A stretch of DNA of 63,204 bases from positions 1 through 63,204 of IMG/VR virus record IMGVR_UViG_3300046412_000211; one strand, given 5' to 3'. The stretch is from a virus. The stretch's first letter is position 1, and every line of letters starts with the position of its first letter. Under the pieces are notes generated by a model. The model was not told where the DNA came from. It made no database searches and saw nothing but the letters and a program-made list of their open reading frames with translations. A program made the translations under genes and the position numbers. This document shows positions 7,655 through 55,078 of the stretch, one piece after another.

Positions 7655-7658
7655 TTTA

Positions 7659-7697
7659 ATACCCAACAGATTTTTTGATGATTTGTTGGGTATTTCT
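7659..7697 (+). terminator. Hairpin after the chaperone genes
   Basis: ATACCCAACA (7659-7668) is perfectly complementary to TGTTGGGTAT (7684-7693). Only a weak T run follows (TTCT), so termination may be partial. Confidence 0.6.
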
Positions 7698-7706
7698 ATA
7701 TTTATA
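7698..7706 (+). promoter_or_regulatory. Late-type motif ATATTTATA before the tape-measure operon
   Basis: 28 bases before the ATG at 7735 and immediately after the hairpin. Confidence 0.5.
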
Positions 7707-7734
7707 GAATATAAGAACAACGGGATATACTATT

Positions 7735-7971
7735 ATGAAAACAATAAAAGAATCACAACTTAAAGAATTATTCGAAAAATTCGGATTATCAGAAGGGTTA
7801 TTTGATATCTTTAAAAAGAAAACTAAAGGTAACGTATCAAAATCCACAAAGAAAAAATTAGCAGCTATAGATAGTGATATAGAAGATGTAATTTCATCTG
7901 CTCCTACTGAAGAAGAAAGAAAAGCACTAAAAGATATGGCTGATTTCTTAAAAGGTGCAAAATACTTATAA
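7735..7971 (+). CDS. Small charged protein of unknown function
   Basis: A 78-residue, Lys/Glu-rich, probably helical protein with a basic centre (KKKTKGNVSKSTKKK, residues 27-41). It is the first gene of the tape-measure transcription unit, 24 bases ahead of the tape measure. A tail assembly role is possible from position only. Confidence 0.55.
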   Translation: MKTIKESQLKELFEKFGLSEGLFDIFKKKTKGNVSKSTKKKLAAIDSDIEDVISSAPTEEERKALKDMADFLKGAKYL

Positions 7972-7995
7972 TATCAATATTAAGGGTTTAACGAA

Positions 7996-29173: not shown

Positions 29174-29377
29174 ATGGCATTAAGAGGTGAATCACATCCA
29201 CAACATAAATTAACTGAAGAGCAAGTTTATACAATCCGAAAACTATGGAAAGTAGGGCATCGGAATGTTAGAGTATTGGCTAGAAATAATGGTGTATCAC
29301 CTGCTAATATTCGTAGAATCGTTAAGAATGAAACGTGGACTCATCTTTTAGTGGGTGAATTTGATAAATACCAATAA
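29174..29377 (+). CDS. Small helix-turn-helix protein related to HNH homing endonuclease DNA-binding tails
   Basis: 67 residues from the ATG at 29174. 'GESHPQHKLTEEQVYTIRKL' followed by 'RVLARNNGVSPANIRRIVKN' and 'ETWTHL' is the DNA-binding module that usually ends HNH homing endonucleases, but no HNH nuclease domain is present. It may be a remnant of a mobile endonuclease or a stand-alone regulator. It overlaps the first Mom-like gene by one base. Confidence 0.75.
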   Translation: MALRGESHPQHKLTEEQVYTIRKLWKVGHRNVRVLARNNGVSPANIRRIVKNETWTHLLVGEFDKYQ

Positions 29378-30135
29378 TGAAAGAAGTAGGAAAGAAGTAT
29401 TGTGATACATCCAAATTATCAGTAAGAAAAATTTCCAAATCCGTAGCTAAAGATATAGTAATAAAAAACCACTATTCACATTTGTGGACTAAAGTATCTT
29501 ACGCTATTGGTTTGTATGTTGAGGATGATTCACATCAGTTCTTTAATACTTCAGAAAAACTTATAGGTGTTGCTTGTTATGGAGACCCGATTGGTAGATT
29601 GAGTGGACAATCCATAACTGAACTATTAGATAGAACGGAAGTTTTAGAATTAGTTCGACTATTTGTATTTGATGATTATGGTTCAAATATAGAAAGTTGG
29701 TTCTTAGGTAAAACCTTTCAATGGTTAAGAGAGAACGCGCCACATATCAAAGGATTAATATCATATTCAGACCCTAAAGAAGGTCATAACGGAACTATCT
29801 ACCAAGCAACGAATTGGATTTATCAAGGTGATAAGTTACGATTCAACGATAGTTGGAGTTTTAAGTTTAGTGAAGATGGGGAGTGGCAGCATGGGAGAAC
29901 GATATTTCCATATTATGGAACTAACAACCCAAAGAAAATCCAACAACAGATTGATAAACCATTTTGGATTCGTAAAGAACCTCGTAAACACAGATATGTT
30001 TACATTCTTGCGAAGGGTGGTGAAAGAAGGAAGTTACTCAAAAATCTGAAACATCCAACTTTACCATATCCAAAATCAGAAAATGAAGTAGAATTAGAAA
30101 TACATAAATTAGAACCAATTGAAAGTAGAAGGTAA
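29377..30135 (+). CDS. Mom-like DNA modification (GNAT-fold) protein, copy 1
   Basis: A 252-residue protein with features of the Mu Mom group of acyltransferase-fold base modifiers: an early 'IVIKNHYSHLWTKVSYAIGL', 'LELVRLFVFDDYGSNIESWF' and 'LISYSDPKEGHNGTIYQATN' with WIYQG. Mu Mom converts adenine to a carbamoylmethyl derivative that blocks restriction. The next gene is a clear paralogue. DNA modification is inferred from family resemblance only; other GNAT substrates are possible. Confidence 0.65.
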   Translation: MKEVGKKYCDTSKLSVRKISKSVAKDIVIKNHYSHLWTKVSYAIGLYVEDDSHQFFNTSEKLIGVACYGDPIGRLSGQSITELLDRTEVLELVRLFVFDDYGSNIESWFLGKTFQWLRENAPHIKGLISYSDPKEGHNGTIYQATNWIYQGDKLRFNDSWSFKFSEDGEWQHGRTIFPYYGTNNPKKIQQQIDKPFWIRKEPRKHRYVYILAKGGERRKLLKNLKHPTLPYPKSENEVELEIHKLEPIESRR

Positions 30136-30922
30136 ACATTATTGTGATGTAAGTAGAGTTAGTGTAGCTCCGATAGCAAAATCTATCGCTAAAGATATTA
30201 TCATAAAGAAACACTATACTCACGCTTGGACTGCGTGTAGATACGCATTGGGTATTTACTACAGAGGTGATGAAGAAGATGTATTTGGTAACCAACAACA
30301 ACTTATCGGATGTGCTATTTACGGATTCCCAGTCGGAGCAAAAGCACCAACTTCAGTATGTGAGGATTTAACCAAAGATAATATCTTAGAGTTGACTCGT
30401 TTGTACGTTGATGATGGATATGGTTCTAATATCGAATCAAACGCACTATCTAAAACATTTAAGTGGATTAAGGAAAACGATAAGAATATCAAAGTTCTAT
30501 TATCATACGCTGATAATGGACAAGAACACTTAGGTGGTATTTACCAAGCTACCAATTGGATATATCAAGGGTTGAATACTGATATCGCTCTAATGCCTAA
30601 TTGGGGTATATCATTAACCAAAGACCCATATGGATGGATTCATAGTAGAACTGTATTCAACAATTGGGGTAGTGGTAATTTAGAACACTTAAAAAGAGAA
30701 ATCGGTAAAGATGGATACAAAGAGTTTTGGAGAAGAGAAGAACCACCAAAACATAGATACATCCAATTACTACCTCAGAATAAAAAAGAAAAGAAGAATT
30801 TAATGAAAAGGTTGAAGCACGAAATCAAACCTTATCCTAAATCAGCAAGAGATTATAATACAGATGTTATCAGACATGATACATATCCACCAGAAGAAAG
30901 TAATGAGATAAATTTTTGGTAG
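30119..30922 (+). CDS. Mom-like DNA modification (GNAT-fold) protein, copy 2 (TTG start)
   Basis: A 267-residue paralogue of the preceding gene. The N-termini align residue for residue from the start (MKVEGKHYCDVSRVSV against MKEVGKKYCDTSKLSV), which supports TTG at 30119 as a genuine start overlapping the first gene by 17 bases; the next Met is far inside. It shares 'LELTRLYVDDGYGSNIESNA', 'LLSYADNGQEHLGGIYQATN' and WIYQG. The two have diverged over most of their length, so they probably act on different targets or as a heteromer. Confidence 0.65.
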   Translation: MKVEGKHYCDVSRVSVAPIAKSIAKDIIIKKHYTHAWTACRYALGIYYRGDEEDVFGNQQQLIGCAIYGFPVGAKAPTSVCEDLTKDNILELTRLYVDDGYGSNIESNALSKTFKWIKENDKNIKVLLSYADNGQEHLGGIYQATNWIYQGLNTDIALMPNWGISLTKDPYGWIHSRTVFNNWGSGNLEHLKREIGKDGYKEFWRREEPPKHRYIQLLPQNKKEKKNLMKRLKHEIKPYPKSARDYNTDVIRHDTYPPEESNEINFW

Positions 30923-41259: not shown

Positions 41260-42657
41260 ATGGCAGATAAAAAGAAAAAACCTCTGATACTTTTGTTATC
41301 AGATGATATGAGATTACATAGTGGTATCGCCACAATGTCAAAGGAGTTCGTACTCCATACAGCCCACAAATATGATTGGATTCAAGTCGGAGCAGCAGTA
41401 AAACATCCTGATAAAGGTAAGTTTTTTGATGTATCCGATTCTATAAATAAAGAAGCAGGTATTGATAATGCTAGTGTTAAAATCATTCCTTCAGATGGGT
41501 ATGGTAACCAATCATTAATCAGACAATTAATTACCACCGAAGATGTAGATGCAATCTTACACTTTACAGACCCACGTTTTTGGGATTGGTTATATGCTAT
41601 GGAAGATGAGGTTCGTAAACACATTCCTATTATGTACTATAACATTTGGGATGATTTACCAGACCCAATGTGGAACGCACCTTTCTATGGAAGTTGTGAT
41701 TTATTAATGGGAATATCAAAACAAACGTATGGTATTAACAAAAGAGTGCTAGATAAGTTTGGTATGGATATGGAAGATTGGCAAATACAATATGTACCAC
41801 ATGGTGTTTCTAAAAGTTTTAAACCTATTCTGAAAGGTGTTGATGGGTATGAAAAAGTTGAAGATATGAAAGTTAACTTAGGAATAGATAAAAAGGAGTT
41901 TGTTCTATTCTTTAATAACAGAAATATTCGTAGAAAGAATCCAGGTGATATTGTATTGGCATATAAAACATTTTGTGATGGATTAACAAAAGAAGAAGCA
42001 GATAAGTGTTGTTTGTTGATGCATACACAACCAACCGATGATAACGGAACGGATTTAGTTGAAGTTATTAAGAATGTTTGTCCTGATTACGATGTTCTAT
42101 TTACAAATAAACAATTTAGTACAGATGAACTAAATTTAGTTTACAATTCAGTAGATGTTACAATCAATATGGCATCTAACGAAGGGTTTGGTTTAACTAC
42201 TTGTGAATCTGTAAATGCAGGAACACCTATTATTCTTAATGTTACTGGTGGGTTACAAGACCAATGTAATTTTACTATTGATGGTAAATATATTACATCA
42301 GAACAATATGTTGAGTTGGGTTCATTACATGATAGAAAGAAACTACCACAAAATTTAAGTTGGGGTAGTTGGGTAAATCCTATATGGCCAACCAATCGTT
42401 CACTACAAGGTTCACCAATGACTCCTTATATTTTTGATGACAGATGTTCGTATGAAGATGCAGCAAAAGCAATCAGACAATGGTACGATACTTTACCAGA
42501 AAGAAGAGTAGAGTGTGGATTGGAAGGTTCAGAGTGGATGAAAGGTAATGAAAGTAATATGAGTGCACCTAATATGGGTAAAAGATTTATCGAATGTATG
42601 GATGCGTGTTTTAAAAATTGGAAACCAAAAAATGAGTTAGTATTATGGAAGATATAA
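41260..42657 (+). CDS. GT4-family glycosyltransferase
   Basis: A 465-residue GT-B enzyme. The N-terminal half opens 'PLILLLSDDMRLHSGIATMS'; the linker region has 'QYVPHGVSKSFKPI'; the donor half has 'FNNRNIRRKNPGDIVLAYKT' and the E-x7-E signature region 'NMASNEGFGLTTCESVNAGT'. Transfers a sugar from a nucleotide donor; acceptor unknown. A late-type motif precedes it, so virion or envelope glycans are more likely than DNA. It overlaps the next glycosyltransferase by 13 bases. Confidence 0.85.
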   Translation: MADKKKKPLILLLSDDMRLHSGIATMSKEFVLHTAHKYDWIQVGAAVKHPDKGKFFDVSDSINKEAGIDNASVKIIPSDGYGNQSLIRQLITTEDVDAILHFTDPRFWDWLYAMEDEVRKHIPIMYYNIWDDLPDPMWNAPFYGSCDLLMGISKQTYGINKRVLDKFGMDMEDWQIQYVPHGVSKSFKPILKGVDGYEKVEDMKVNLGIDKKEFVLFFNNRNIRRKNPGDIVLAYKTFCDGLTKEEADKCCLLMHTQPTDDNGTDLVEVIKNVCPDYDVLFTNKQFSTDELNLVYNSVDVTINMASNEGFGLTTCESVNAGTPIILNVTGGLQDQCNFTIDGKYITSEQYVELGSLHDRKKLPQNLSWGSWVNPIWPTNRSLQGSPMTPYIFDDRCSYEDAAKAIRQWYDTLPERRVECGLEGSEWMKGNESNMSAPNMGKRFIECMDACFKNWKPKNELVLWKI

Positions 42658-43988
42658 AAAAGTTTTGTGTAGTTAGTTGTCCAATATCTACGAGAAGTGG
42701 GTATGGCGCTAGAAGTAGGGATTTTGTAAGAGCATTAATTGATGCTAGACCCGATTGGGATGTTCAGATACTATCTCAAAGATGGGGTAATACACCAATG
42801 GATGCATTAATTCCTGGTGAAGATGATGATTTGTTAAATAGAATCATTACAAAAAAAGAAGATAAAAAACCAAATGTTTGGATTCAGATTACTGTTCCAA
42901 ATGAGTTTCAACCTATAGGTGATTATAACATTGGTGTAACTGCTGGTGTTGAAACGACTATCATGCCTCCTGAGTGTTTAGAAGGTATGAATCGTATGGA
43001 TAAGGTATTAGTATCATCAAACTTTACAAAAGAAGTAATTAACAGTACTCAATTTGATAAAAAAGATAAAGATACTGATAGATTGTTAGGTCAATTAAAA
43101 ATAGAAAAACCAGTAGATGTTTTATTCGAAGGAATTGATTTGGAAGTTTATGATAATAAAGCACCATCTGAAAAACGAATTGATGAGATATTCAAAGGTG
43201 TTAAAGAATCATTTTGTTTCTTATTCGTTGGCCATTGGTTAAAGGGTGAATTTGCACAAGATAGAAAAAATATCGGTGGGATGATTCAAACGTTTTTAGA
43301 AGTATTTAAAAATAAAAAGAATCCACCTGCATTGATTCTAAAAACAAATAGAGGTAATAGTTCATTGACTGATAGAGTTTACACTAAAAAGATAATTGAA
43401 CAAATTAAAGATAGTGTAGATACTAAACGATTACCTAATATTTATTTATTGAACTCAGATTTAACTGATTGGGAAATGAACGCATTGTACAATCACCCAA
43501 AAGTAAAAGCTCACGTTTCATTTACGAGAGGTGAAGGATTTGGTAGACCTTTGTTAGAAGCAACTATTAGTGGTAAACCAATGGTAGTATCAGCTTGGAG
43601 TGGGCAAACTGATTTCTTAAATAACGAAATGGTTACAACGGTTGGTGGTAAATTAACACAAGTACACCCATCAGCAGCTGATAATTTTATCTTAAAAGAT
43701 GCATCTTGGTTTGAGATTGATTATAACTTAGCAGGTGGTACTATGAAAGATATTTTTGATAATTATAAGAAATACTTAACAAAATCAAGAAAACATAGGC
43801 AATACACTAAGGATAACTTTACTTGGGAACATATGAGAGATTTATTAAGTGAACAACTTAAAGATGCAGATTCTGCTAAAGTATCACCAACTCAAGTTGG
43901 ATTGCAATTACCTAAGTTAAAGAAAAAAGGTGAAACACCAACGTTACCTAAGTTAGAATTACCTAAGTTAAAGAAAGTAGATAAATAA
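42645..43988 (+). CDS. GT4-family glycosyltransferase with C-terminal repeat tail
   Basis: A 447-residue GT-B enzyme paralogous in layout to the previous gene: 'CPISTRSGYGARSRDFVRAL', 'VDVLFEGIDLEVYDN', 'FLFVGHWLKGEFAQDRKNIG' and donor-site 'SFTRGEGFGRPLLEATISGK'. The last 35 residues repeat LPKLKK and LPKLEL, a short basic linear tail that could dock a partner. Acceptor unknown. Confidence 0.85.
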   Translation: MEDIKKFCVVSCPISTRSGYGARSRDFVRALIDARPDWDVQILSQRWGNTPMDALIPGEDDDLLNRIITKKEDKKPNVWIQITVPNEFQPIGDYNIGVTAGVETTIMPPECLEGMNRMDKVLVSSNFTKEVINSTQFDKKDKDTDRLLGQLKIEKPVDVLFEGIDLEVYDNKAPSEKRIDEIFKGVKESFCFLFVGHWLKGEFAQDRKNIGGMIQTFLEVFKNKKNPPALILKTNRGNSSLTDRVYTKKIIEQIKDSVDTKRLPNIYLLNSDLTDWEMNALYNHPKVKAHVSFTRGEGFGRPLLEATISGKPMVVSAWSGQTDFLNNEMVTTVGGKLTQVHPSAADNFILKDASWFEIDYNLAGGTMKDIFDNYKKYLTKSRKHRQYTKDNFTWEHMRDLLSEQLKDADSAKVSPTQVGLQLPKLKKKGETPTLPKLELPKLKKVDK

Positions 43989-44565: not shown

Positions 44566-44593
44566 AAATGTTTGTTTATTCGAACATTTTTTT
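44566..44593 (+). terminator. Intrinsic terminator overlapping the next promoter
   Basis: AAATGTTTG (44566-44574) pairs with CGAACATTT (44581-44589) with one G-U, then TTTT. The -33 TTTG of the next promoter lies in the left arm. Confidence 0.7.
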
Positions 44594-44602
44594 GTATATT
44601 AG
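44571..44602 (+). promoter_or_regulatory. Host-type promoter TTTG-N20-TATATTAG for the sialic-acid-type operon
   Basis: TTTG 44571-44574 and TATATTAG 44595-44602, 18 bases before the ATG at 44621. Eight coupled genes follow. Confidence 0.8.
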
Positions 44603-44620
44603 TAGTATTATTTAAACATT

Positions 44621-45241
44621 ATGAAAATAAGTTACGCAATAACAGTATGTAATGAGTTTGTAGAAATACAAAAACTCATACCATTCCTTTTGAAACACAA
44701 AAGACACGAAGATGAAATCGTAGTTCTATACGATTATAAGAATGGTGATAAAAAAATCGAAGAATTCCTAAGAGCAAAATCTATAAACGCCGAATTCCAA
44801 TGGTTCGGTAGTGGGTTTGATGGGCATTTCGCAGATTGGAAAAACAAACTAAATTCATTCTGTAGTGGTGATTACATTTTTCAGATTGATGCAGATGAGA
44901 TTCCAAACGAAGTATTGATTGAAAATTTACCTGAAATCTTAAAAGGTAACGATGTGGATGTTATCTTAGTTCCAAGAGTAAATACAGTTGAAGGATTAAC
45001 CGATGAACATATCCAAAAGTGGAGATGGAATGTTGATGAGAAGGGTTGGGTAAATTGGCCTGATTTTCAATACAGAATCTACAAAAACTCAGATGATATT
45101 AATTGGAAAAACAAAGTACATGAAGTATTAGATGGGTTTAGAACAATATCTCATTTACCAATGGATGAAGATTTAGCGTTGTATCACCCAAAAGAAATTG
45201 AAAGACAAGAGAAGCAAAACGAATACTACGATACATTATGA
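44621..45241 (+). CDS. GT2-family glycosyltransferase
   Basis: A 206-residue GT-A enzyme: 'ISYAITVCNEFVEIQKLIPF' start and metal-binding DAD in 'DYIFQIDADEIPNEVL'; 'FQYRIYKNSDDINWKNKVHE' is usual near the C-terminus. First gene of the operon that also makes the CMP-sugar. It overlaps the HAD gene by 4 bases. Confidence 0.85.
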   Translation: MKISYAITVCNEFVEIQKLIPFLLKHKRHEDEIVVLYDYKNGDKKIEEFLRAKSINAEFQWFGSGFDGHFADWKNKLNSFCSGDYIFQIDADEIPNEVLIENLPEILKGNDVDVILVPRVNTVEGLTDEHIQKWRWNVDEKGWVNWPDFQYRIYKNSDDINWKNKVHEVLDGFRTISHLPMDEDLALYHPKEIERQEKQNEYYDTL

Positions 45242-45531
45242 AAATTTATGTAGATATTGATGAAACTATATGTTTTTATGATGGAGAGCGTGAGTATCCA
45301 AATGCAGTTCCTAGTAAAGAGAACATAGCTAAAATAAATAAGTTATATGATGAGGGGCATGAAATAACTTATTGGACAGCTAGAGGAACTGTTACTGGTT
45401 TTAATTGGTTTAAAGTAACACAAGAACAATTATCGAAGTGGGGGTGTAAATATCACCATTTAAGTGTTGGTTATAAACCAGCATATGATTTGTTAATTTG
45501 TGATAAAACAAAAAGAATTGAAGAGATATGA
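45238..45531 (+). CDS. Small HAD-family phosphatase
   Basis: A 97-residue HAD enzyme with motif I 'IYVDIDETICFY' (D-x-D-x-T) and motif II 'ITYWTARG'; 'YDLLICDKTKRI' carries the last acidic motif. Similar tiny HADs occur in capsule and LPS loci, where they dephosphorylate sugar or ulosonic-acid phosphates. Within a NeuA/NeuB operon, a Neu-9-P phosphatase-like job is possible (inference). Confidence 0.8.
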   Translation: MKIYVDIDETICFYDGEREYPNAVPSKENIAKINKLYDEGHEITYWTARGTVTGFNWFKVTQEQLSKWGCKYHHLSVGYKPAYDLLICDKTKRIEEI

Positions 45532-46229
45532 AAAAAGAAATATTAGATAGTTTAAATAAAGTAGGTATTTGTGTAATAGAAGATTACTTCCCATCAGATT
45601 GGTGTGATAAAGCAGTATCTCATATGGAAGATGCTTTAGTAACATATAAAGATAAAGTACAATCTCAAGCTACGGAAGGAACATCAGGTGATTTTAGAGT
45701 ATTCAAAATGGAAAACCAATACGATACTGCTAAAGAATTTGCAGATGATAAATTTTTATTAGATGTTGGTACGGAATATTTTGGGTATCCGATAGTAAGC
45801 CATTTTGTATTAGGGGGTAAGGTTCAACATAATCCAAATCAAACTACCAATAGTGGTGGTGGATGGCACAGAGATAATAGAGGTAAACAAATCAAAACAA
45901 TTGTTTATCTTACAGATGTATCTGAAGAATCAGGCCCGTTTTCATTTTTACCACTATCTAATCAGTTTGATTTACAGACGAGAGATGGTATCGGAAAGGC
46001 AACTAGATATGATGATTCTATAGTTGATGAATTTTGTAAAGAAAATAATATAGAACCATTTAAAGTAATTGGTAAAAAGGGAACTATAATATTTGTTGAT
46101 ACATCATTTATTCATAGAGGATTAAATATTCAATCTGGTTCTAGATACACTTATACTAATTACTATTTTGAGAATCACCCACAACGAATTCAGATGAGTG
46201 AAGATAAGTGGGGTAAAAATTATATATAA
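45528..46229 (+). CDS. Phytanoyl-CoA dioxygenase-like 2OG-Fe(II) oxygenase
   Basis: A 233-residue PhyH-type enzyme. The iron site is WHRD (H-x-D, about 112-115) and the distal His in 'TSFIHRGLNIQSGSRYTYTN' with the 2OG-binding Arg after it. 'IVYLTDVSEESGPFSFLPLS' is typical of the family. It would hydroxylate a small molecule or a sugar; operon context points to a glycan or nucleotide-sugar substrate. Confidence 0.85.
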   Translation: MKKEILDSLNKVGICVIEDYFPSDWCDKAVSHMEDALVTYKDKVQSQATEGTSGDFRVFKMENQYDTAKEFADDKFLLDVGTEYFGYPIVSHFVLGGKVQHNPNQTTNSGGGWHRDNRGKQIKTIVYLTDVSEESGPFSFLPLSNQFDLQTRDGIGKATRYDDSIVDEFCKENNIEPFKVIGKKGTIIFVDTSFIHRGLNIQSGSRYTYTNYYFENHPQRIQMSEDKWGKNYI

Positions 46230-47290
46230 TGGCACATATTTTTAAATATCCAACTGAATCTAACAAAGGAATCATTGTGTTTACTCACAAAGAATGGCCT
46301 GGTTTATTGGAAACCGCATTTCCTACCCTTCAAGATTTGAAAAAATACTTTTTCTTAGGATGGAATCAAGGAATTTATTTTGGTAATATACAAATGCCGC
46401 CGATTGTTGATTTTGCATTTACTAGTCCAAATGCTATAACTTTTCCTGATAATGGTAATACTCAAAATATAGAATTATTAGATAGAAACTTTATATTAGA
46501 TGATTTTAAAGACTTAAATATTAAAGATAAAACATTTGATATAATAACAGTAAGTAGAGTAGCTAAATGGAAAAACGTACCTAGTTTGTTACATGCTATT
46601 AGAGAGTTAAACGATAAAAAAATATATCCAAACTGTCTATTAGTTATGCCTACATCACTCCACGAAACTACAGAAAACGCTGATGTTGATATTGTAAGAT
46701 TATACGAAAAATTATTTAACGTTGAAGAACGTAAAAATATAACTATGCTTAGGTTATCTGATGAGTTGGGGTATTTGGGTGTTTCTCCAAAAACTATTAA
46801 TTGGTTTTATAATAATTCTAAGATTTTATACATTGGTTCTGATTCAGAAGGTGGGTGTAGGGTTGTACATGAAGCATTACTTACGGGGTGTGATGTGGTA
46901 TATTTCAAAGACCATAGAGGTCCTCTAAAAGATTATTTAGATGATACAAATAGTATATCTTTTGAATCTTATGATAAAGTTAGTGTTGCTCTTGAAAAAG
47001 CAATAAATAATTACAAATATTTCAAAGATAAAGGGAAAAAATATGATGAATTGTTGAGTGAACGATTTGCTTTAAAAAAATTAATTCCCCATTTTGAAAA
47101 ATTATATGAAAGACATAACCAAATTTTTGATGGTAAATTGATTAATTGCGATAACCTATCCAATAGACTTCCAGCCCATTATGGTGATGTAGAGTGGAAA
47201 AATCCTGAAGGTCATTATACATTAACAGCTGATATTAAAACTATGGAACAATTTCACAAATTTATAGAACACATAAATAAAAATATATGA
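46229..47290 (+). CDS. GT-B glycosyltransferase
   Basis: A 353-residue protein with a GT4-like C-terminal half: 'FDIITVSRVAKWKNVPSLLH', 'NCLLVMPTSLHETTENADVD' and donor-site 'LYIGSDSEGGCRVVHEALLT' (E-x7-E pattern). The N-terminal half is short and divergent. It is coupled on both sides within the operon (start overlaps the PhyH stop, end overlaps neuA by 4 bases). Confidence 0.75.
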   Translation: MAHIFKYPTESNKGIIVFTHKEWPGLLETAFPTLQDLKKYFFLGWNQGIYFGNIQMPPIVDFAFTSPNAITFPDNGNTQNIELLDRNFILDDFKDLNIKDKTFDIITVSRVAKWKNVPSLLHAIRELNDKKIYPNCLLVMPTSLHETTENADVDIVRLYEKLFNVEERKNITMLRLSDELGYLGVSPKTINWFYNNSKILYIGSDSEGGCRVVHEALLTGCDVVYFKDHRGPLKDYLDDTNSISFESYDKVSVALEKAINNYKYFKDKGKKYDELLSERFALKKLIPHFEKLYERHNQIFDGKLINCDNLSNRLPAHYGDVEWKNPEGHYTLTADIKTMEQFHKFIEHINKNI

Positions 47291-47814
47291 GAGTTGTAGG
47301 ATTAGTAGCGGCCAAAGAGAATTCGAATAGATTCCCAAACAAAAATATTCATATGGTAAATGAAGTACCTATGTTTATGAATTCAGTACAACCAATGCTT
47401 GATTCAAATATGGTTGATGAGGTGTATGTTATTACGGATTCTAAGTTTATTAAATCATATTGTGATGAAAATGGTATTGGGGTTATTTGGAGAGCTAAAA
47501 ACGCAACGCGTGATGAAGATAAACTTATAACGATACTTAGATATGGATATTATAATTTAGATATTGAATATGATATTGTGGTATCATTAATGGCTAATTG
47601 TCCAGGAAATCAAACATCAGATATTGATAATGGAATCGATACTATGATTAAACACAAATTAAAAGAAGTACGAGGATTTGGTACTGATGGTGTTGAAAAT
47701 GGTTTGATGATATTAGATAAAGAAATACTCCAAAGTAATAGAGATGTATCTTATTATTTAGGTGGAGTTATAACAAATGGAAAAGAAATACACTATAAAA
47801 AAGATTTATTATGA
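47287..47814 (+). CDS. neuA: CMP-sialic acid (acylneuraminate) cytidylyltransferase, NeuA-like
   Basis: A 175-residue nucleotidyltransferase with the signature 'VAAKENSNRFPNKNIHMVNE' (A-x3-S-x-R-x-P-x-K-N) and 'VYVITDSKFIKSYCDENGIG'. It activates a nonulosonic acid with CTP. It is shorter than typical NeuA (about 220-230), with the C-terminal dimerisation part reduced. It is translationally coupled to neuB, so the pair makes and activates one sugar. Confidence 0.82.
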   Translation: MRVVGLVAAKENSNRFPNKNIHMVNEVPMFMNSVQPMLDSNMVDEVYVITDSKFIKSYCDENGIGVIWRAKNATRDEDKLITILRYGYYNLDIEYDIVVSLMANCPGNQTSDIDNGIDTMIKHKLKEVRGFGTDGVENGLMILDKEILQSNRDVSYYLGGVITNGKEIHYKKDLL

Positions 47815-48677
47815 AAATTAACAACCAACATCCTGTATATTTTATAGCAGAAATAGGACAAAATCATCAAGGTGATATTAACATAGCAAAAAAGATGGTG
47901 GATAGTCTAAAAGGACTTCCCGTTTCTTGTATCAAAACGGCTAAACGTGATATAGATGTATGTTTATCAGATGAACAAAAAGAAATGATTTATGATAATC
48001 CTAATTCATTTGGTAGAACATACTATGAACACAGAAAGGCATTAGAGTTATCTAAAGATGATTTTATTGAGTTTAAAAACTATGTAGAATCAGCAGGATT
48101 TGATTTTATTAGTTCGTTTACCGATAAACCGAGTTTAGATTTCTTACAGGAAATTGGTACGACTGGGTTAAAGATTGCATCACAACGTACTGCTGATTTA
48201 GAACTACTTAGGGCAGTAGCAGATACTAAGTTACCAACTATTCTAAGTACTGGAATGTCAAATATTGATGATGTTGATAGAGCAGTTGAAATACTAAAGA
48301 ACAACGATGAGTTACACTTATTACAATGTACCAGCACATATCCTACTCCAGAAAATGAACTAAATCTGAATGTAATTCCAATGTATCAAAAACGATATGA
48401 GGGTATTGTAAATAGTGTTGGGTTTAGTGGACATCACGGCGGTGTTGCTCCTGATATTGCGGCATATATGATGGGTTCTCGTATTATTGAAAGACATTAT
48501 ACATTAAGTAGAAGTATGAAAGGTACAGACCATCCGGGTTCATTGGAATTGCAAGGTGTTCAATACATACTAAAATATATCGAACAAGTTAAACAAGCTA
48601 TGGGTACTTCTGAAAAGTATGTGTTAGAATCAGAAAAACCAGCTCTGATGAAATTAAGAGGGGATTTGAAAAGATGA
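47811..48677 (+). CDS. neuB: N-acetylneuraminate (nonulosonic acid) synthase, NeuB-like
   Basis: A 288-residue TIM-barrel synthase: 'YFIAEIGQNHQGDINIAKKM', 'FDFISSFTDKPSLDFLQEIG', 'LKIASQRTADLELLRAVADT', 'LLQCTSTYPTPENELNLN' and 'GFSGHHGGVAPDIAAYMMGS' plus 'IIERHYTLSRSMKGTDHPGS'. It condenses PEP with a ManNAc-type sugar. The C-terminal SAF (antifreeze-like) domain usual in NeuB is missing. Legionaminic or pseudaminic acid synthases (LegI/PseI) share the fold, so the exact sugar is open. No NeuC epimerase is present. Confidence 0.88.
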   Translation: MKINNQHPVYFIAEIGQNHQGDINIAKKMVDSLKGLPVSCIKTAKRDIDVCLSDEQKEMIYDNPNSFGRTYYEHRKALELSKDDFIEFKNYVESAGFDFISSFTDKPSLDFLQEIGTTGLKIASQRTADLELLRAVADTKLPTILSTGMSNIDDVDRAVEILKNNDELHLLQCTSTYPTPENELNLNVIPMYQKRYEGIVNSVGFSGHHGGVAPDIAAYMMGSRIIERHYTLSRSMKGTDHPGSLELQGVQYILKYIEQVKQAMGTSEKYVLESEKPALMKLRGDLKR

Positions 48678-49336
48678 AAATAGATATTAATAATACTACA
48701 CTTAATCCATTTTTAACATCTACATATCCTGAGATGTTTAACCTACCATCTACATCAAAAGTATGTTTAGTTGGTAATAGTGGATTAATGAAAACAAAAG
48801 AGTGGGGTGTTGAAATAGATGATTATGATGTTGTTGTTCGATTCAACCACGCACCAACAGATGGTTATGAGAACTATGTAGGTAGTAAAACAACTATTAG
48901 ATTGGTGAATGGGCATTGTTTTGGTGGTACAACCAAAGTAGAAAGAAACCCATCAGCAAACTCAAAATTCCTACCAACACTTCCAGCTCAAGATATCATA
49001 TGTAAGACTTGGAATGTTGAAGAATTTATGTTAGGTGTTTTTAATAACGTAAACAAACATAATTTGTTCTTTATAAATCCCCAATTTATAATGGAAGTAT
49101 CAAAATATACTCCTGGTCAAGAACCAACTGCTGGATTTGTAATGTTAATGTTATTACTATCTAAATTCAGTAATATAAGTATGTATGGATTTACATTTTG
49201 GGAAGATGGTTACGATTACCATTATTTTGAAAAAGTTCCATTAGCAGCTAATGATTTAGGACATGATTTTAATAGTGAACGTGATATAATACAACAACTA
49301 TCAAATGATAATAAAATAAAAATACATAAGTTATGA
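48674..49336 (+). CDS. GT29-type sialyltransferase
   Basis: A 220-residue protein with eukaryote-style sialylmotifs. L-motif, residues about 29-79: 'KVCLVGNSGLMKTKEWGVEI', then DDYDVVVRFNHAPT and YENYVGSKTTIRLVN. S-motif, 151-175: PTAGFVMLMLLLSKF followed by ISMYGFTFW. VS-like motif HYFE, 183-186. This fits GT29, mostly known from animals, and differs from the bacterial sialyltransferase families GT42, GT52 and GT80. It would move sialic acid from the CMP-sugar made by NeuA/NeuB to a glycan. No membrane anchor is present. Confidence 0.82.
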   Translation: MKIDINNTTLNPFLTSTYPEMFNLPSTSKVCLVGNSGLMKTKEWGVEIDDYDVVVRFNHAPTDGYENYVGSKTTIRLVNGHCFGGTTKVERNPSANSKFLPTLPAQDIICKTWNVEEFMLGVFNNVNKHNLFFINPQFIMEVSKYTPGQEPTAGFVMLMLLLSKFSNISMYGFTFWEDGYDYHYFEKVPLAANDLGHDFNSERDIIQQLSNDNKIKIHKL

Positions 49337-50541
49337 TAAGTAAAAAAGATATAAGTTTCATTCAACCGAGTAGAAACAATTTAAAATACCTAAAGTGGTC
49401 TTATGATTCCATTAGAAAGAATGGTGGACCAGAACCAACCATTTGTGTTGCTGATGATTTCAGTAACGATGGAACTTGGGAATGGTGTGAAGAGATGATG
49501 AAGAAAGACCCAAACTTCAAAGCAATTAGAAACGAAGGGCCTAAACGATTAGGACATACGATTCTATATGATGAATTAGTAAAGATAGCAGATACTCCGA
49601 TTGTAGGAATCTATCACGCAGATATGTATCTTATGCCAAAAGCATTGGATTTCGTAATAAAACACATCAAACCTCTAAGTGTGGTATCATTGACTAGAAT
49701 CGAACCACCACTTCATCCCGATGGGCCTGAGAAAATGTTAATGGATTTCGGAATCGAACCTGAAGAGTTCAAAGAAGAAGAGATGTTAGAGTGGTTCAAA
49801 GATGTACAGATGAATCAAGCAACTAAACAAACCGAAGGGATATTTGCTCCGTGGTTTATCTTCAAAGAAGATTTCACATCAATCGGTGGGCATGACCCAT
49901 TATTTGCTCCACAATCAAAAGAGGATACTGATATTTTTAACAGATTCCAACTTAATGGATATAAGTTTATTCAAACTTGGGGTGGTTGTGTATATCATAT
50001 GACTTGTAGAGGTAGTAGATTCGCAGATGGGGCAAAACGAAACCCAAATGGTGAAGTGTTTATGAAAAATAGAGAAACGGATGAGTGGTTGATTCAGAAT
50101 CAACGTTCAACTCGTAACTTTTTAAGAAAGTGGGGACATTATTGCCAACACGATTCATTAATGAAACCAATAATACCACCAAAGTATAATACTCAGTTTA
50201 TAATTGAAAATGGTAATGAAGGATTATTAGAGTTATTAGAACCTTGGTGTGATAATATTAATATCGATATACCTCAAGAAAAAATTGATGAATATATCAA
50301 AAAAGAACAACCTGATACTGATTTTGATTTGAGTAAAAGAATAAATCAAAATGTATCAAATGATATAAAAATAAGCTTTGATGGAAATAAATTTACACAA
50401 AGTTCTTATGATAATATACAACGGTTATCTGCCATACTTGAGTCTAATGAAATTGAGGTAGGTGAGTTCGAACTTGATATACTTAGTATAAAGATACAAA
50501 GAGTAAAAACGTATGAACATACATTGATTTCAGTTGATTAA
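49333..50541 (+). CDS. GT2-family glycosyltransferase
   Basis: A 402-residue GT-A enzyme: 'DISFIQPSRNNLKYLKWSYD', 'CVADDFSNDGTWEWCEEM', the HAD in 'GIYHADMYLMPKALDF' in place of DxD, and 'WFIFKEDFTSIGGHDPLFAP' with EDTDIFNRF as acceptor-side acidic motif. The last 120 residues are extra and unrecognised. Last gene of the sialic-acid-type operon. Confidence 0.82.
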   Translation: MISKKDISFIQPSRNNLKYLKWSYDSIRKNGGPEPTICVADDFSNDGTWEWCEEMMKKDPNFKAIRNEGPKRLGHTILYDELVKIADTPIVGIYHADMYLMPKALDFVIKHIKPLSVVSLTRIEPPLHPDGPEKMLMDFGIEPEEFKEEEMLEWFKDVQMNQATKQTEGIFAPWFIFKEDFTSIGGHDPLFAPQSKEDTDIFNRFQLNGYKFIQTWGGCVYHMTCRGSRFADGAKRNPNGEVFMKNRETDEWLIQNQRSTRNFLRKWGHYCQHDSLMKPIIPPKYNTQFIIENGNEGLLELLEPWCDNINIDIPQEKIDEYIKKEQPDTDFDLSKRINQNVSNDIKISFDGNKFTQSSYDNIQRLSAILESNEIEVGEFELDILSIKIQRVKTYEHTLISVD

Positions 50542-50543
50542 GG

Positions 50544-50551
50544 TATTTATA
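50544..50551 (+). promoter_or_regulatory. Late-type motif TATTTATA
   Basis: 6 bases before the ATG at 50558, immediately after the glycosyltransferase stop. Confidence 0.45.
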
Positions 50552-50557
50552 AGTGTT

Positions 50558-50800
50558 ATGATGTACTATATTTTACTTCCAGATGACACCGATGAAGGTG
50601 TTCAATATTCAACAAATATTTTGGGTGAATCCTCTTTCAAAAACTTTTGGGCAGACCAAGGTTTTGATATATTTGAAAGATTAGTACACAAATATCCTGA
50701 TACTTTAGATGAAATTAAAATTAAAGATGAAAAAGGAAAACAATACACTCCTGAAGAATTCTTAGGAGCAGTAGGTAAATTAAATATAATTCGTAGTTAA
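50558..50800 (+). CDS. Small conserved-looking protein of unknown function
   Basis: 80 residues from ATG 50558 (or 79 from 50561), starting MMYYILLPDDTDEGVQYSTN and continuing GESSFKNFWADQGFDIFERL, 'DEIKIKDEKGKQYTPEEFL'. An upstream start at 50534 would overlap the glycosyltransferase and include the promoter motif. The preceding late-type motif suggests a virion or assembly role; not recognised. Confidence 0.6.
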   Translation: MMYYILLPDDTDEGVQYSTNILGESSFKNFWADQGFDIFERLVHKYPDTLDEIKIKDEKGKQYTPEEFLGAVGKLNIIRS

Positions 50801-51119: not shown

Positions 51120-52001
51120 ATGTTATTAAAAGTAGGTTCAAAAGGACCAGAAGTCAAATCATTACAAGAGTTTTTAGGAATATCAGCTGATGGTATCTTT
51201 GGTAAAGGTACAGAGTTTGCAGTTAAGGAATTTCAAAAACTAAATGGATTAACAGTTGATGGATTAGTAGGGCCTGGAACTTGGGATTGTATGGGATTAG
51301 CAACAACTGATGATTCAGAAAAAACTTATACAACTGATAACGGATTAATAATCAATAGACACTTTTTACCGCCAGGTGAATATAAAAGTGGAATCACAAA
51401 AAAAGAATATTGTTTCTTACACCATACAGCAGGATGGCAAAACCCATATAGAACTGTAGACCATTGGGGTAGAGATAGTAGAGGTGCAGTAGCAACTGAA
51501 TTCGTTTTAGGTGGTCAATCAATCAAAGGTAACGATGAAACTTACGATGGTGAAATGGTTCAAGCATTTCCTGAAGGACATTATGGATGGCACTTAGGGA
51601 AAAATGGTTCACAACATATGCATACACATTCTGTAGGTATCGAAGTAAATAATTTCGGATACTTAAAGAATGGTAAAACATATGCTGGAACTACGGCACA
51701 TGAATCTCAAATCGTTACATTACCAAAACCATTCAGAGGGTTTAAAGATTGGCATAGATATTCTGATAAACAAATAGAAGCTTTAAGATTATGGATTCTT
51801 TGGATTGCAGAGAGAGATGGTATCGATGTAAGAAAAGGATTAGTAGAAGAAGTTAAGAAAAAAGGTGCAGATGGATTTGAATTCAATGAAGATGCATACT
51901 ATGGTAGAGTAAAAGGTATGTGGACTCATACTAATACTAGAAAAGATAAGTTTGATATGTTCCCACAACCCGAACTATTAGACATGTTGGTAGGGTTGTA
52001 A
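51120..52001 (+). CDS. Endolysin: peptidoglycan-binding domain plus N-acetylmuramoyl-L-alanine amidase
   Basis: A 293-residue lysin. Residues 1-60 are a PG_binding_1 domain ('GSKGPEVKSLQEFLGISADG', then GIFGKGTEFAVKEFQ and DGLVGPGTW). Residues about 90-230 are an Amidase_2 domain with zinc-site 'YCFLHHTAGWQNPYRTVDHW', 'GWHLGKNGSQHMHTHSVGIE' and 'WHRYSDKQIEALR'. It cuts the amide between muramic acid and the stem peptide. No signal peptide, so it needs a holin; two holin-like genes lie 5 kb downstream. Confidence 0.92.
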   Translation: MLLKVGSKGPEVKSLQEFLGISADGIFGKGTEFAVKEFQKLNGLTVDGLVGPGTWDCMGLATTDDSEKTYTTDNGLIINRHFLPPGEYKSGITKKEYCFLHHTAGWQNPYRTVDHWGRDSRGAVATEFVLGGQSIKGNDETYDGEMVQAFPEGHYGWHLGKNGSQHMHTHSVGIEVNNFGYLKNGKTYAGTTAHESQIVTLPKPFRGFKDWHRYSDKQIEALRLWILWIAERDGIDVRKGLVEEVKKKGADGFEFNEDAYYGRVKGMWTHTNTRKDKFDMFPQPELLDMLVGL

Positions 52002-52090: not shown

Positions 52091-55078
52091 ATGAAAAAGT
52101 ATTTAGTAAGTCTATTATTTTTGATGCCTTTCTTCTTAATGGCTCAAGATAGCTGGTTCAAATTAGAGGTGCAGTTCGATGCATACGCTGATGATGAATC
52201 ATTCGCATTATTAACACAAAATGGTGATACCTTAGTAAACTATCAACCATCAAATCCTTTCGAACTATGGTCAACCATAATCGAAGCAGATTCAGGAACT
52301 ATCGATATATCATTATTAGATGATTGGGGTGATGGATGGCAAGGTGGACCACAAAACAACAATTCAAACACAACGGCATGGTTAAAGATATCAAACGAAT
52401 GTCAAGGTACAATATTAGATTTAGATGTAGCAGGGTTGGGTAGTTTTACTCAATATGATACATCTTTTGTTTTAGACCCATGTGCACCTGCTGTTTGTAA
52501 TTTCTTAAATGAAACCACATATCAGATTTGTTTAAGTGGTGAACAAGCATTAGTAGTATGGGAATGGGAAAACGAATGGTGTGACCCAGTCAATGTAATC
52601 TTTTGGAATGATGAAGGATGGGGGCCATTTACACAAGGTGTAAATCCTGGCGCTACAAATTATGGAATGTTAGCTGGAAACGGGCAGATGCCACCTAATT
52701 GGAGTAGTGAACATTATCTTTATATAGAATATGCAGATGGTTCAGTATCAGATACAATGACATATACACCAACACCATGTATAGAAGGGTGTTTGGATAC
52801 AAATGAAACTGCATTCAACCCTTGGGCTACTGAGGATGATGGAAGTTGTAGTACAACTCTTTGCGACCCAGCAACTGAATATCCAATTACAATGGAAATC
52901 ACATTAGATAATTGGCCAGGTGAAACTTCGTGGATAATGACTACAAATACGCCAGCTGGTAACGTTTCAGTTCCTGTTGGTGAATATGATTATTCTGATT
53001 TTGGACAAACTTATACTTATGATTTTTGTGTATCTCAAACAGCAGGGTTCGAACTTGTTGTAAATGATACCTATGGTGATGGTATGGGTGGAACTGCACA
53101 ATCAGGACCAGGCGCTATCGTTATAAAAGATTGTTCTGGTGATACTATTTGGGAAATGACTAATCCAAACTTCGGAACTACACTTTACTCAGGAAACCAA
53201 ATGGCAACTGCGTGTCCTGTTATTCCTGATGTATTAGGATGTACAGACCCATTATATCAAGAATATAATCCAAATGCAAATATAGATGATGGTAGTTGTG
53301 CTACACCTCATATTTTTGGATGTATGGATACAAACTCAATAAATTATGATTCAAATGCAACTAAACAATCAATCGTTCCTGTATGTGATTACACATTAAC
53401 TATCGAAGATGGTGGTGGAGATGGTTGGGGTAATTCTTGGTTAGGTGTTGCTCAAGATGGTGTTCCTGTTGGAGTATTCACTATGGGACCAGGTAACTAC
53501 GAACAAACGTTCCAATTCCAATTGGAAACAGATAAAACTGTAGAAGTTTATTACTTTGAAGTTGCAGCACCACAACAATCACCTCAACAAGTAGAGTTCC
53601 AAACTTTACAGAACTCATTTACATTAGAAAATTCAGATAGTGTTGTTCTATTAGCATGGGGGCAAAACCCATTCTCTAATAACGGAGCAGGTGCATTACA
53701 ACCATTTGAAGCACCTTTCTATGAAAGGTGGGTAGGTGAACCTTATTGTGGTGATTCTTGTATTCCTATTGTTTTAGGTTGTACAGACCCAACGGCTCTA
53801 AACTATAATCCAGACGCAAATACAGAGGACCCAAATAATCCTTGTATTCCTTACATTGAAGGATGTATGAATCCATTAGCATTCAACTACAACCCTAACG
53901 CAACAGTCGATGATGGTAGTTGTGTTCCTGTAATCGTAGGTTGTATGGATGATACAATGTGGAATTATGATTCTACGGCAAATACGCCAGGTACTTGTAT
54001 TCCATTTATCTATGGTTGTACAGACCCTACCTCATTCAACTATGACCCTAACGCTAATACAGATGATGGTAGTTGTGTACCTATTATATATGGTTGTACA
54101 GACCCAACGGCATTCAACTACGATTCAACGGCAAATACTGATGATGGTTCGTGTATCGCAAGAGTGTATGGTTGTATGGATTCAACAATGTTTAATTACG
54201 ACCCATTAGCAAATACTGATGATGGTTCGTGTATTCCTTTCATCTACGGATGTATGGACCCACAATCGTTGAACTACGACCCATCAGCAAATACAAACCA
54301 AACATCAGCAACAGATTTCACAAATCCTTGTATTCCTATTGTATATGGGTGTATGGATTCAACATCATTTAATTATGACCCTAATGCAAACGTAGATAAC
54401 GGAAGTTGTGTACCATTTGTATATGGATGTATGGACCCGAATTCGTTTAATTACGACCCTGCCGCAAATGTGAATCAAGTATCCGCAACTGATTTATCGA
54501 ATCCTTGTATTCCGATTGTGTATGGTTGTACTGATTCAACATCGGTAAACTATGACCCGAATGCAAATGTTGATAACGGAAGTTGTATTACGGCAGTGGT
54601 TGGATGTACGGATGTATCGGCTTATAACTATGACCCGAACGCAAACGTATCAGATTCAACTGCTTGTTTATATGATGCGGGTTGTATTGGTGGACCAGGA
54701 AATCCATATTGGTTAAACAATCCTTGTTACGCTTGGGTAATTGATGTAGATACATATTGTTGTGATACAGAATGGGATTCAGATTGCCAGGAATTATACA
54801 ACTATTGTGAAGATGGATATCCATTAGATATTAGTGAATTAGGTGGAAGTAAGATTGCAGTTTATCCTAATCCAACAAATGATAAAATAACTATTAATAC
54901 TTCATTAAGAGATGTAAGTTATATGTTATTTGATTTGACTGGTAGATTACTACAAAGTGGTGAAGGAGTAAAGAGAGAAGAAGTTGATATATCAAATTAT
55001 CCAAACGCTGTTTACTTACTTAGAATAGAGTATGATGGAAACATTTACAATAAAAAAATTATAAAAGAGGATAGGTAG
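52091..55078 (+). CDS. Secreted repeat protein with a type IX secretion (T9SS) C-terminal sorting domain
   Basis: A 995-residue exported protein. Residues 1-19 are a signal peptide (MKKYLVSLLFLMPFFLMAQ). About residues 20-560 hold beta-rich domains with repeated 'DDWGDGWQGG', 'DTYGDGMGG' and 'DGGGDGWGNSW' loops. From 563 to about 860 are eleven contiguous units of G-C-T/M-D-P-x-x-x-N-Y-D-P-x-A-N-x-D-D-G-S-C. After a further Cys-rich stretch, residues about 918-995 form a type A sorting domain: 'SKIAVYPNPTNDKITINTSL', 'MLFDLTGRLLQSGEG' and 'YLLRIEYDGNIYNKKIIKED'. This tail is used only by Bacteroidota T9SS machines. The protein would be displayed on or released from infected cells. Confidence 0.85.
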   Translation: MKKYLVSLLFLMPFFLMAQDSWFKLEVQFDAYADDESFALLTQNGDTLVNYQPSNPFELWSTIIEADSGTIDISLLDDWGDGWQGGPQNNNSNTTAWLKISNECQGTILDLDVAGLGSFTQYDTSFVLDPCAPAVCNFLNETTYQICLSGEQALVVWEWENEWCDPVNVIFWNDEGWGPFTQGVNPGATNYGMLAGNGQMPPNWSSEHYLYIEYADGSVSDTMTYTPTPCIEGCLDTNETAFNPWATEDDGSCSTTLCDPATEYPITMEITLDNWPGETSWIMTTNTPAGNVSVPVGEYDYSDFGQTYTYDFCVSQTAGFELVVNDTYGDGMGGTAQSGPGAIVIKDCSGDTIWEMTNPNFGTTLYSGNQMATACPVIPDVLGCTDPLYQEYNPNANIDDGSCATPHIFGCMDTNSINYDSNATKQSIVPVCDYTLTIEDGGGDGWGNSWLGVAQDGVPVGVFTMGPGNYEQTFQFQLETDKTVEVYYFEVAAPQQSPQQVEFQTLQNSFTLENSDSVVLLAWGQNPFSNNGAGALQPFEAPFYERWVGEPYCGDSCIPIVLGCTDPTALNYNPDANTEDPNNPCIPYIEGCMNPLAFNYNPNATVDDGSCVPVIVGCMDDTMWNYDSTANTPGTCIPFIYGCTDPTSFNYDPNANTDDGSCVPIIYGCTDPTAFNYDSTANTDDGSCIARVYGCMDSTMFNYDPLANTDDGSCIPFIYGCMDPQSLNYDPSANTNQTSATDFTNPCIPIVYGCMDSTSFNYDPNANVDNGSCVPFVYGCMDPNSFNYDPAANVNQVSATDLSNPCIPIVYGCTDSTSVNYDPNANVDNGSCITAVVGCTDVSAYNYDPNANVSDSTACLYDAGCIGGPGNPYWLNNPCYAWVIDVDTYCCDTEWDSDCQELYNYCEDGYPLDISELGGSKIAVYPNPTNDKITINTSLRDVSYMLFDLTGRLLQSGEGVKREEVDISNYPNAVYLLRIEYDGNIYNKKIIKEDR
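53777..54669 (+). repeat. Coding repeat array of eleven GCxDPxxxNYDPxANxDDGSC units
   Basis: Units of about 21-33 codons, two lengthened with NQxSATDxxNPC endings; three looser copies lie upstream. Paired Cys in each unit suggest disulfide-braced, Asp-rich (possibly calcium-binding) modules. Confidence 0.85.

Follow-up and report, generated by a model that had tools for sequence, protein, structure and literature searches.

Which sugar would a phage make and transfer with a sialyltransferase of a family best known from animals, and onto what would that sugar be placed? The question is raised by the record of a marine virus in IMG/VR (IMGVR_UViG_3300046412_000211), analyzed here over its whole length of 63,204 bases (the window). 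The record is a fragment (relatives have 160-178 kb), and no terminase or capsid gene was seen among its open reading frames (ORFs). Eight translationally coupled ORFs at 44621-50541 of the plus strand, including a putative GT29 sialyltransferase gene, had been described in an original prediction as a sialic-acid-type cassette. The locus is best explained as an exchangeable cassette for glycans in T4-like phages of Flavobacterium-type Bacteroidota. In the fuller account, to which we give about an even chance, the swappable cassette would make a 3-deoxy-ulosonic acid and transfer it to an acceptor made by the phage, with a virion protein as the likeliest candidate. The gene set, the family and fold of GT29, its linkage to ulosonate synthases and the exchange of cassettes were read from the sequences compared here.

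The GT29 protein

The 220-residue protein is almost certainly a GT29 member by both family and fold. The Pfam profile PF00777 (Glyco_transf_29) matched it with 106.1 bits (cut-off 23; 2.8e-30), and phmmer aligned most of its length with the mammalian ST3Gal1 structure (1.2e-15). A profile made from 17 phage GT29 proteins matched ST3Gal1 (1.8e-28), ST6Gal1 (1.5e-23), and ST8Sia3 (4.3e-20) in the PDB. The AlphaFold model (pLDDT 85.7, pTM 0.86) was used in a fold search, where 30 of 30 PDB chains at E<=0.001 were mammalian GT29; the next match stood at 0.048. Profile and fold thus upheld the original assignment. The gene and its motifs are located as follows.

48674 to 49336, plus strand: GT29 sialyltransferase-family protein, 220 amino acids (PF00777 and fold match)
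48761 to 48910, plus strand: sialylmotif L (VCLVGNSG...VVRFNHAPT...VGSKTTIRLVN), from about residue 30, aligned to ST3Gal1 and ST6Gal1
49124 to 49192, plus strand: sialylmotif S (PTAGF...YGF), from the alignment of 17 phage proteins
49220 to 49231, plus strand: sialylmotif III (HYFE), H183 and Y184 invariant in the 17 phage proteins
49262 to 49279, plus strand: sialylmotif VS (H-x4-E), catalytic histidine region, H197 and E202 invariant in the 17 phage proteins

All four sialylmotifs were intact in 17 of the 17 aligned phage proteins, and residues G45, I48, D49, R56, N58, A60, E66, V69, G70, T73, R76, and N79 of motif L were invariant. Motifs L, S, and HYFE had been named correctly before; motif L had been placed from 48697 instead of about 48761, and motif VS had been overlooked. 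No segment of the protein exceeded the threshold for a membrane anchor in a hydropathy scan, and no S-motif cysteine that could form the L-S disulfide was found in the phage GT29 alignment. In the sister record L002, two shorter GT29-like paralogues (6970-7578 and 7554-8123) with the L-motif variant VGPSPHLEGMGLG lie next to the main GT29 gene.

Linkage of GT29 to ulosonate synthases

Phage GT29 genes were collected with a back-translated L-motif pattern, R-[FLM]-N-x-A-P-x7-V-G-S-[RK]-T, which is blind to neighboring genes. Of 23 viral loci matched, 22 carried GT29. The same pattern found six loci in 84,980 species genomes of bacteria and archaea, one of them a GT29 gene (Pelagibacteraceae). 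Together with the window, its sister L002 (L027 is the same contig), the huge phage LR756508, and Stenotrophomonas phage DLP6, the pattern loci gave 25 GT29-bearing records.

Searches of these whole records detected NeuB in 14 and a KdsA-family protein in 10, both occurring together only in L002. A phosphoenolpyruvate (PEP)-dependent ulosonate synthase (NeuB or KdsA) was therefore present in 23/25, and a cytidylyltransferase domain (CTP_transf_3) likewise in 23/25. The two records without a synthase were a 9-kb fragment with HAD and dihydrodipicolinate synthase (DHDPS) genes, and DLP6. Although the records span 30 to 484 kb, the gap from GT29 to the nearest synthase was 57 to 1,714 bases (median 745) for all 23 synthases; the product of the per-record proximity chances is about 10^-25, a figure that overstates independence because several records are near duplicates. 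As a background rate, tblastn with the window NeuB as query matched 3 of 50,697 phage records. This linkage strongly supports a sialic-acid-type (3-deoxy-ulosonate) pathway as the setting of the phage GT29 genes, and the neighboring synthase and cytidylyltransferase genes predict transfer from a sialic acid activated with cytidine monophosphate (CMP).

The type of donor is not legible from the GT29 sequence because related GT29 proteins pair with either NeuB or KdsA. The GT29 tree was likewise rejected as a guide to it, since pairing changes between the NeuB type and the KdsA type at least five times.

Several other arrangements were observed among these records. The 484-kb huge phage LR756508 (L003) has five GT29 genes or more, of which four surround a NeuB gene, adjoining GDP-fucose-type genes. 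In DLP6, AMQ65952.1 (L004, 7938-8729), annotated as a hypothetical protein, is a divergent GT29; neither NeuB nor KdsA was found in that record. A gene similar to DHDPS or 2-keto-3-deoxygluconate aldolase adjoins the Kdo-8-P synthase gene (Kdo, 3-deoxy-D-manno-octulosonic acid) in the KdsA-type cassettes L005, L008, L012, L014, L022, and L048. In some phages (L006, 3767-5617; L009, 11348-12868) NeuB forms a fusion, either with a xylose-isomerase-like domain, SAF being present, or with a cupin/lyxose-isomerase-like one.

A slot with swapped content

The original prediction had not recognized that the eight genes occupy an exchangeable slot. Its order is GT4-GT4-p174-GT2, cassette, GT2-p88-amidase, and the fixed genes are these.

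41260 to 42657, plus strand: GT4a, upstream flank glycosyltransferase (PF00534 3.5e-07, GT4-conflict 6.5e-07), kept in L034, L041, and the immuto phage
42645 to 43988, plus strand: GT4b, upstream flank glycosyltransferase (weak PF00534; phrog_2170 1.9e-15), 47.9% identical to a protein of Flavobacterium phage immuto
43988 to 44512, plus strand: p174, flank protein with no Pfam match, kept in L034, L035, L041, and L114
44621 to 45241, plus strand: GT2a, first slot gene (PF00535 1e-06), swap breakpoint at its stop codon
49333 to 50541, plus strand: GT2b, downstream flank (PF00535 3.2e-13), swap breakpoint at its start; its predicted model was poor (pLDDT 58.6)
50534 to 50800, plus strand: p88, flank protein kept beside GT2b and the amidase in relatives
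51120 to 52001, plus strand: Amidase_2/PG-binding endolysin-like protein, the slot anchor (PF01510 5.9e-08, PF01471 9.7e-13)

Relatives of the slot were gathered by the amidase anchor, which has 205 viral relatives. Nucleotide similarity to L034, L041, and L051 stops at 45242-45244, the stop codon of GT2a. Up to that point (45242) L034 and L035 are about 83-84% identical to the window, and similarity to L034 resumes with 93% identity at 49328, where GT2b begins. Between these borders L034 and L035 hold three unrelated genes, one of them polysaccharide-deacetylase-like, while GT2b is 66-90% identical among phages with different cassettes. The slots of L038-L045 contain UDP-sugar dehydrogenase, fucose-type and other pathways, and in the cultured Flavobacterium phages vB_FspM_immuto these flanks enclose a different cassette. 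Conserved flanks, unrelated contents and breakpoints at gene borders make it very probable that the slot is exchangeable.

Among other cassettes in this slot, those of L046 and L048 carry GT29 together with ulosonate genes. L046 encodes PhyH, GT-B, NeuB with a SAF domain, NeuC, NeuA, and GT29; its NeuC matched TIGR03568 (3e-120, 401 bits against a cut-off of 236), and the set is a predicted complete sialic-acid-type route (NeuB-NeuC-NeuA-GT29). L048 encodes HAD, a DHDPS-like protein, a Kdo-8-P synthase above the NF003543 cut-off, PhyH, a NeuA-like protein, and GT29. The slot of the window's close relatives holds neither NeuB-NeuC-NeuA-GT29 nor Kdo-8-P synthase-GT29, and L057-L059 (records of 173-178 kb) have NeuB and a short NeuA without GT29. 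Among 13 distinct same-slot cassettes counted by hand, ulosonate genes were present in 4 of 4 with GT29 and in 1 of 9 without it (Fisher p = 0.007). The sister L002 is 91% identical to the window in NeuB, 81% in the short NeuA, and 77% in GT29, keeps the catalytic residues of GT29 and NeuB, and carries an additional full-length copy of the cytidylyltransferase.

Within the slot, downstream of GT29, an IMP dehydrogenase/GMP reductase-like gene was observed in L046 (5911-7023) and in L048 (6752-7834). The IMP dehydrogenase profile match was obtained for L046; the L048 ORF begins with an identical sequence.

Cassette enzymes and the donor sugar

The genes between GT2a and GT29 are the following.

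45238 to 45531, plus strand: small HAD-family phosphatase-like protein, 97 amino acids (phrog_1238 4.7e-24)
45528 to 46229, plus strand: PhyH-like Fe(II)/2-oxoglutarate dioxygenase (PF05721 3.8e-08)
46229 to 47290, plus strand: GT-B (GT4) glycosyltransferase (PF00534 2e-10)
47287 to 47814, plus strand: short NeuA/KdsB-like cytidylyltransferase, 175 amino acids (PF02348, CTP_transf_3, 1.5e-13, residues 5-122)
47811 to 48677, plus strand: NeuB-like 3-deoxy-ulosonate synthase without SAF domain (PF03102 4.6e-60)

The gene identities given earlier (GT2, PhyH, GT-B, NeuA-like, NeuB-like, GT29, GT2) were all backed by Pfam; for HAD the Pfam match was marginal (0.096), and the identity is carried by the phrog_1238 match and by conserved motif residues (D6, D8, T47, and D84 invariant, K80 and D89 nearly so, in ten relatives). 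No PHROG match was obtained for the window NeuB, NeuA, or GT29.

The NeuB-like protein matched PF03102 with 203.5 bits and scored better with TIGR03569 (NeuB_NnaB, 1.2e-62) than with PseI (1.7e-46). Its metal and PEP residues E14, K42, K121, H208, E227, H229, and D240 were invariant in the alignment. The cytidylyltransferase profile PF02348 (51.5 bits) covers only the N-terminal half of the NeuA-like protein, for which the best-scoring models were of the Kdo type (5.4e-12).

We infer the activity, donor, acceptor and benefit of the cassette along the following lines. With GT4a, GT4b, GT2a, and GT2b fixed around the slot, the block-swapped content would determine which sugar is added. The NeuB-like enzyme would condense PEP with a host-supplied aldose, in agreement with the invariance of E14, K42, H208, E227, H229, and D240. 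The CMP sugar may then be made by a cytidylyltransferase of the phage, the host, or both, and GT29 would add the ulosonic acid to a growing glycan, with GT-B, PhyH, and HAD in accessory steps. Because the cassette enzymes look soluble, the sugar is probably added in the cytosol to an acceptor that the phage itself makes, and the surface of new particles would be altered.

GT-B is common to the window and L046, and its relatives adjoin NeuA/NeuB in L009, L010, L011, L023, and L025. A dedicated role of HAD as Neu-9-P phosphatase was dropped, as HAD was also found in the ulosonate-free cassettes L051 and L056. PhyH matched PF05721 with 34.3 bits (cut-off 22) and has the HxD...H triad (WHRD, FIHRG). 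The idea that it hydroxylates the sugar is tentative; PhyH is present in L046 and in the same-slot Kdo-type cassette L048, and absent from the sister L002.

Several points weigh against this account. The cytidylyltransferase has AK for AR in its P-loop and is without the substrate-binding middle part and the C-terminal DID motif; it is the weak link, and its step may be served instead by a CMP-sugar synthetase of the host or by a phage gene outside the recovered fragment. NeuB falls below the TIGR03569 equivalog cut-off (211.9 against 399.65 bits), its residue aligned with E134 of meningococcal NeuB is non-acidic, and the SAF (antifreeze-like) domain, present in the L046 NeuB, was not found in it. 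No NeuC/Epimerase_2 was found in the 63 kb of the window, as had been noted before, although that stretch, a fragment of a larger genome, does not cover the whole phage. Close GT29 relatives are paired with NeuB in one phage and with KdsA in the other (L006/L020, L046/L048). Near duplicates among the 25 GT29 records leave fewer independent lineages, and the same-slot control set is small. On the acceptor, all evidence is of the negative kind: neither multi-pass membrane proteins nor DNA-hydroxymethylation genes were found.

The donor of GT29 is likely a CMP-ulosonate, and we lean towards a nonulosonic rather than an octulosonic acid. Use of CMP-Kdo or a Kdn-like sugar in place of a nonulosonic acid of the N-acetylneuraminic acid (Neu5Ac) type, with the NeuB-like enzyme taking a common aldose, is a possible but less probable alternative. 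It concerns the donor only and fits any acceptor, so that its probability is not additive with those of the other alternatives. The pairing of ten GT29 records with Kdo-8-P synthase, the joint presence of NeuB and KdsA in L002 and the Kdo-type scores of the window cytidylyltransferase all favor it. Epimerase_2 was detected in 0/25 GT29 records (L046, which has NeuC, lies outside that set), and the isomerase-like domains fused to other phage NeuB proteins make Kdn-like or other sugars possible, from other aldoses. Against it stand the full NeuB-NeuC-NeuA set of L046 in the same slot and the best score of the window NeuB with NeuB_NnaB. The earlier label of a sialic-acid-type cassette therefore stands for an ulosonate pathway, by linkage and by L046; a nonulosonic acid is a tentative preference over a Kdo/Kdn-like sugar. 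A host-supplied precursor of the N-acetylmannosamine type, as first proposed, is one option only, since the isomerase-domain fusions point to other aldoses.

The acceptor

No multi-pass membrane protein was found in the called cassettes; a hydropathy scan with a holin-like positive control gave at most one candidate segment per protein. This absence argues against lipid-linked assembly and export of a surface glycan. The preferred acceptor is a virion protein, given the absence of multi-pass membrane proteins, the negative searches of the window for genes of the Tet_JBP (with a silent control) or dCMP-hydroxymethylase type and the presence of two Mom-family proteins; we regard the chances for and against it as balanced.

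A cassette with which the infecting phage remodels the host cell surface, adding ulosonate to host glycans on lipopolysaccharide, capsule or a surface protein, appears rather unlikely, though it is the strongest competitor with regard to the acceptor. The phage would gain by blocking adsorption of competing phages or by freeing its progeny from receptors. Cassette genes do resemble bacterial O-antigen and capsule loci (GT2 and GT4; UGD, GMD, GFS, and WecE in relatives), and bacterial serotype loci likewise swap content between fixed flanks. The called cassettes, however, have no flippase, polymerase or GtrA/GtrB-type anchor, and de novo synthesis of an activated sugar would be a large cost for brief masking.

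Glycans built on phage DNA (hypermodified bases) are very improbable. T4 glucosylates its own DNA, other phages with DNA glycosyltransferases likewise build glycans on theirs, and the phage studied here is T4-like. Virus-encoded glycosyltransferases have also been reported to put diverse glycans on DNA (reference 46 as cited in PMC12619734). Against a DNA acceptor, Tet_JBP was not found in 16 related records, a search in which the control genomes were silent as well; the window, which holds replication genes, has no member of the thymidylate-synthase/dCMP-hydroxymethylase family; and the phage already has its two Mom-family DNA-modification proteins.

It is equally improbable that the window cassette has decayed in part and yields no new sugar, with GT29 and NeuB as remnants: the short cytidylyltransferase without DID, the NeuB without SAF and the lack of NeuC in the window would fit it, but every frame is open and coupled, a short NeuA also lies near NeuB in L057, and the conservation of NeuB, NeuA, and GT29 in L002, with catalytic residues kept, suggests selection.

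Transcription unit and neighboring genes

The coupled ORFs at 44621-50541 were present as first described. Their junctions mostly overlap by 1-4 nt (ATGA/TAATG-type); at 46229 the two ORFs meet to within 1 nt. One promoter-like motif directly precedes GT2a.

44572 to 44602, plus strand: promoter-like TTG-N20-TATATTAG of the cassette (site counts 11 on plus, 1 on minus)

In the whole window, TTG-N20-TATATTWG occurs at 11 sites on the plus strand and one on the minus strand, where about 0.95 per strand were expected. After the copy at 44572 the next site is not met before 50647. Scans for sigma-70 promoters and terminators did not surpass shuffled sequence. One promoter with eight coupled genes is thus a fair description of the locus; the designation of the motif as host-type draws on what is generally known of Bacteroidota promoters. 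The usual form of this strand-biased motif is TTGGwwAwT...GTATATTWG, with plus-strand sites at, e.g., 16651, 17138, 21292, 24306, 29124, 30916, 34803, 39333, and 44572.

The Mom-family proteins are encoded in tandem at 29377-30135 and 30119-30922 (PF25680 1.5e-46 and 2.3e-44). A 995-amino-acid protein at 52091-55078 combines GCTD...NYDPNAN repeats with a sorting domain for type IX secretion (PF18962 4.7e-12), which makes it a phage gene product addressed to a secretion system of Bacteroidota; its internal repeats gave many off-register matches among relatives. The type IX signal and the flanks shared with immuto point to a Bacteroidota host.

Comparison with known systems

GT29 is already known from bacteria, animal viruses and giant viruses, and from one auto-annotated Caudovirales protein. 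A literature search, with subscription papers mostly outside it, found no description of a phage GT29 tied to ulosonate synthases, nor of this slot. If the account given here is true, some phages make sialic-acid-like or Kdo caps with a family best known from animals, and change surface sugars by block swaps at a fixed slot, much like capsule-type switching in bacteria. The locus would then be a source, open to testing, of sialyltransferases that are small and soluble, and the phage proteins would be a new prokaryotic data set on the origin of GT29. We consider it quite unlikely that phages are a main prokaryotic reservoir of eukaryote-type GT29, evolved as CMP-ulosonate transferases in exchangeable virion-glycan cassettes, and the source of eukaryotic sialyltransferases. 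That reading is favored by the strict eukaryote-type L-motif, which gave 22 virus loci against one bacterial gene, and by the GT29 tree, in which two mammalian sequences join the side of the window and the huge phage (88/82), albeit on long branches.

The cultured Flavobacterium phage vB_FspM_immuto (Immutovirus) shares GT4a, GT4b, a small gene at the p174 position, GT2a, and GT2b with the window, and virion glycans are measurable there. Its cassette differs in having aminotransferases, a methyltransferase, a mannosyltransferase, and an epimerase; GT29 and NeuB were not found in it. Mycobacteriophages also use phage-encoded glycosyltransferases for virion glycosylation, there on capsid and tail proteins (cited in PMC12619734); no sialic-acid-type sugar is mentioned for them in that source. 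The bacterial NeuB-NeuC-NeuA (Neu5Ac) and KdsA-KdsB (Kdo) pathways share their enzyme families with the phage cassettes. L046 has all three Neu genes, whereas in the window no NeuC was found and NeuA and NeuB are reduced.

Eukaryotic GT29 enzymes (ST3Gal1, ST6Gal1, ST8Sia3, ST6GalNAc2) and the window protein have in common the four sialylmotifs, the GT29 profile and the fold. The window protein differs in its length of 220 amino acids, its solubility, the lack of a membrane anchor and S-motif cysteine, and an identity of only about 25%. It resembles the bacterial GT29 of Petit et al. (2018; PMC5811610), described from 23 bacterial sequences and one archaeal, which are likewise prokaryotic, contain motifs L, S, III, and VS, and have neither membrane anchor nor disulfide. 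A text search of that paper returned no mention of phage or virus, and the two sets differ in source, the strict L-motif used here having given 22 virus loci against one GT29 in 84,980 species genomes. The GT29 proteins of animal herpesviruses, squirrelpox virus, and giant viruses, and the auto-annotated A0A6J5NLG3 of an uncultured Caudovirales phage, are also virus-encoded; they occur mostly in viruses of eukaryotes, whereas a linked cassette for donor synthesis is a feature of the phages described here.

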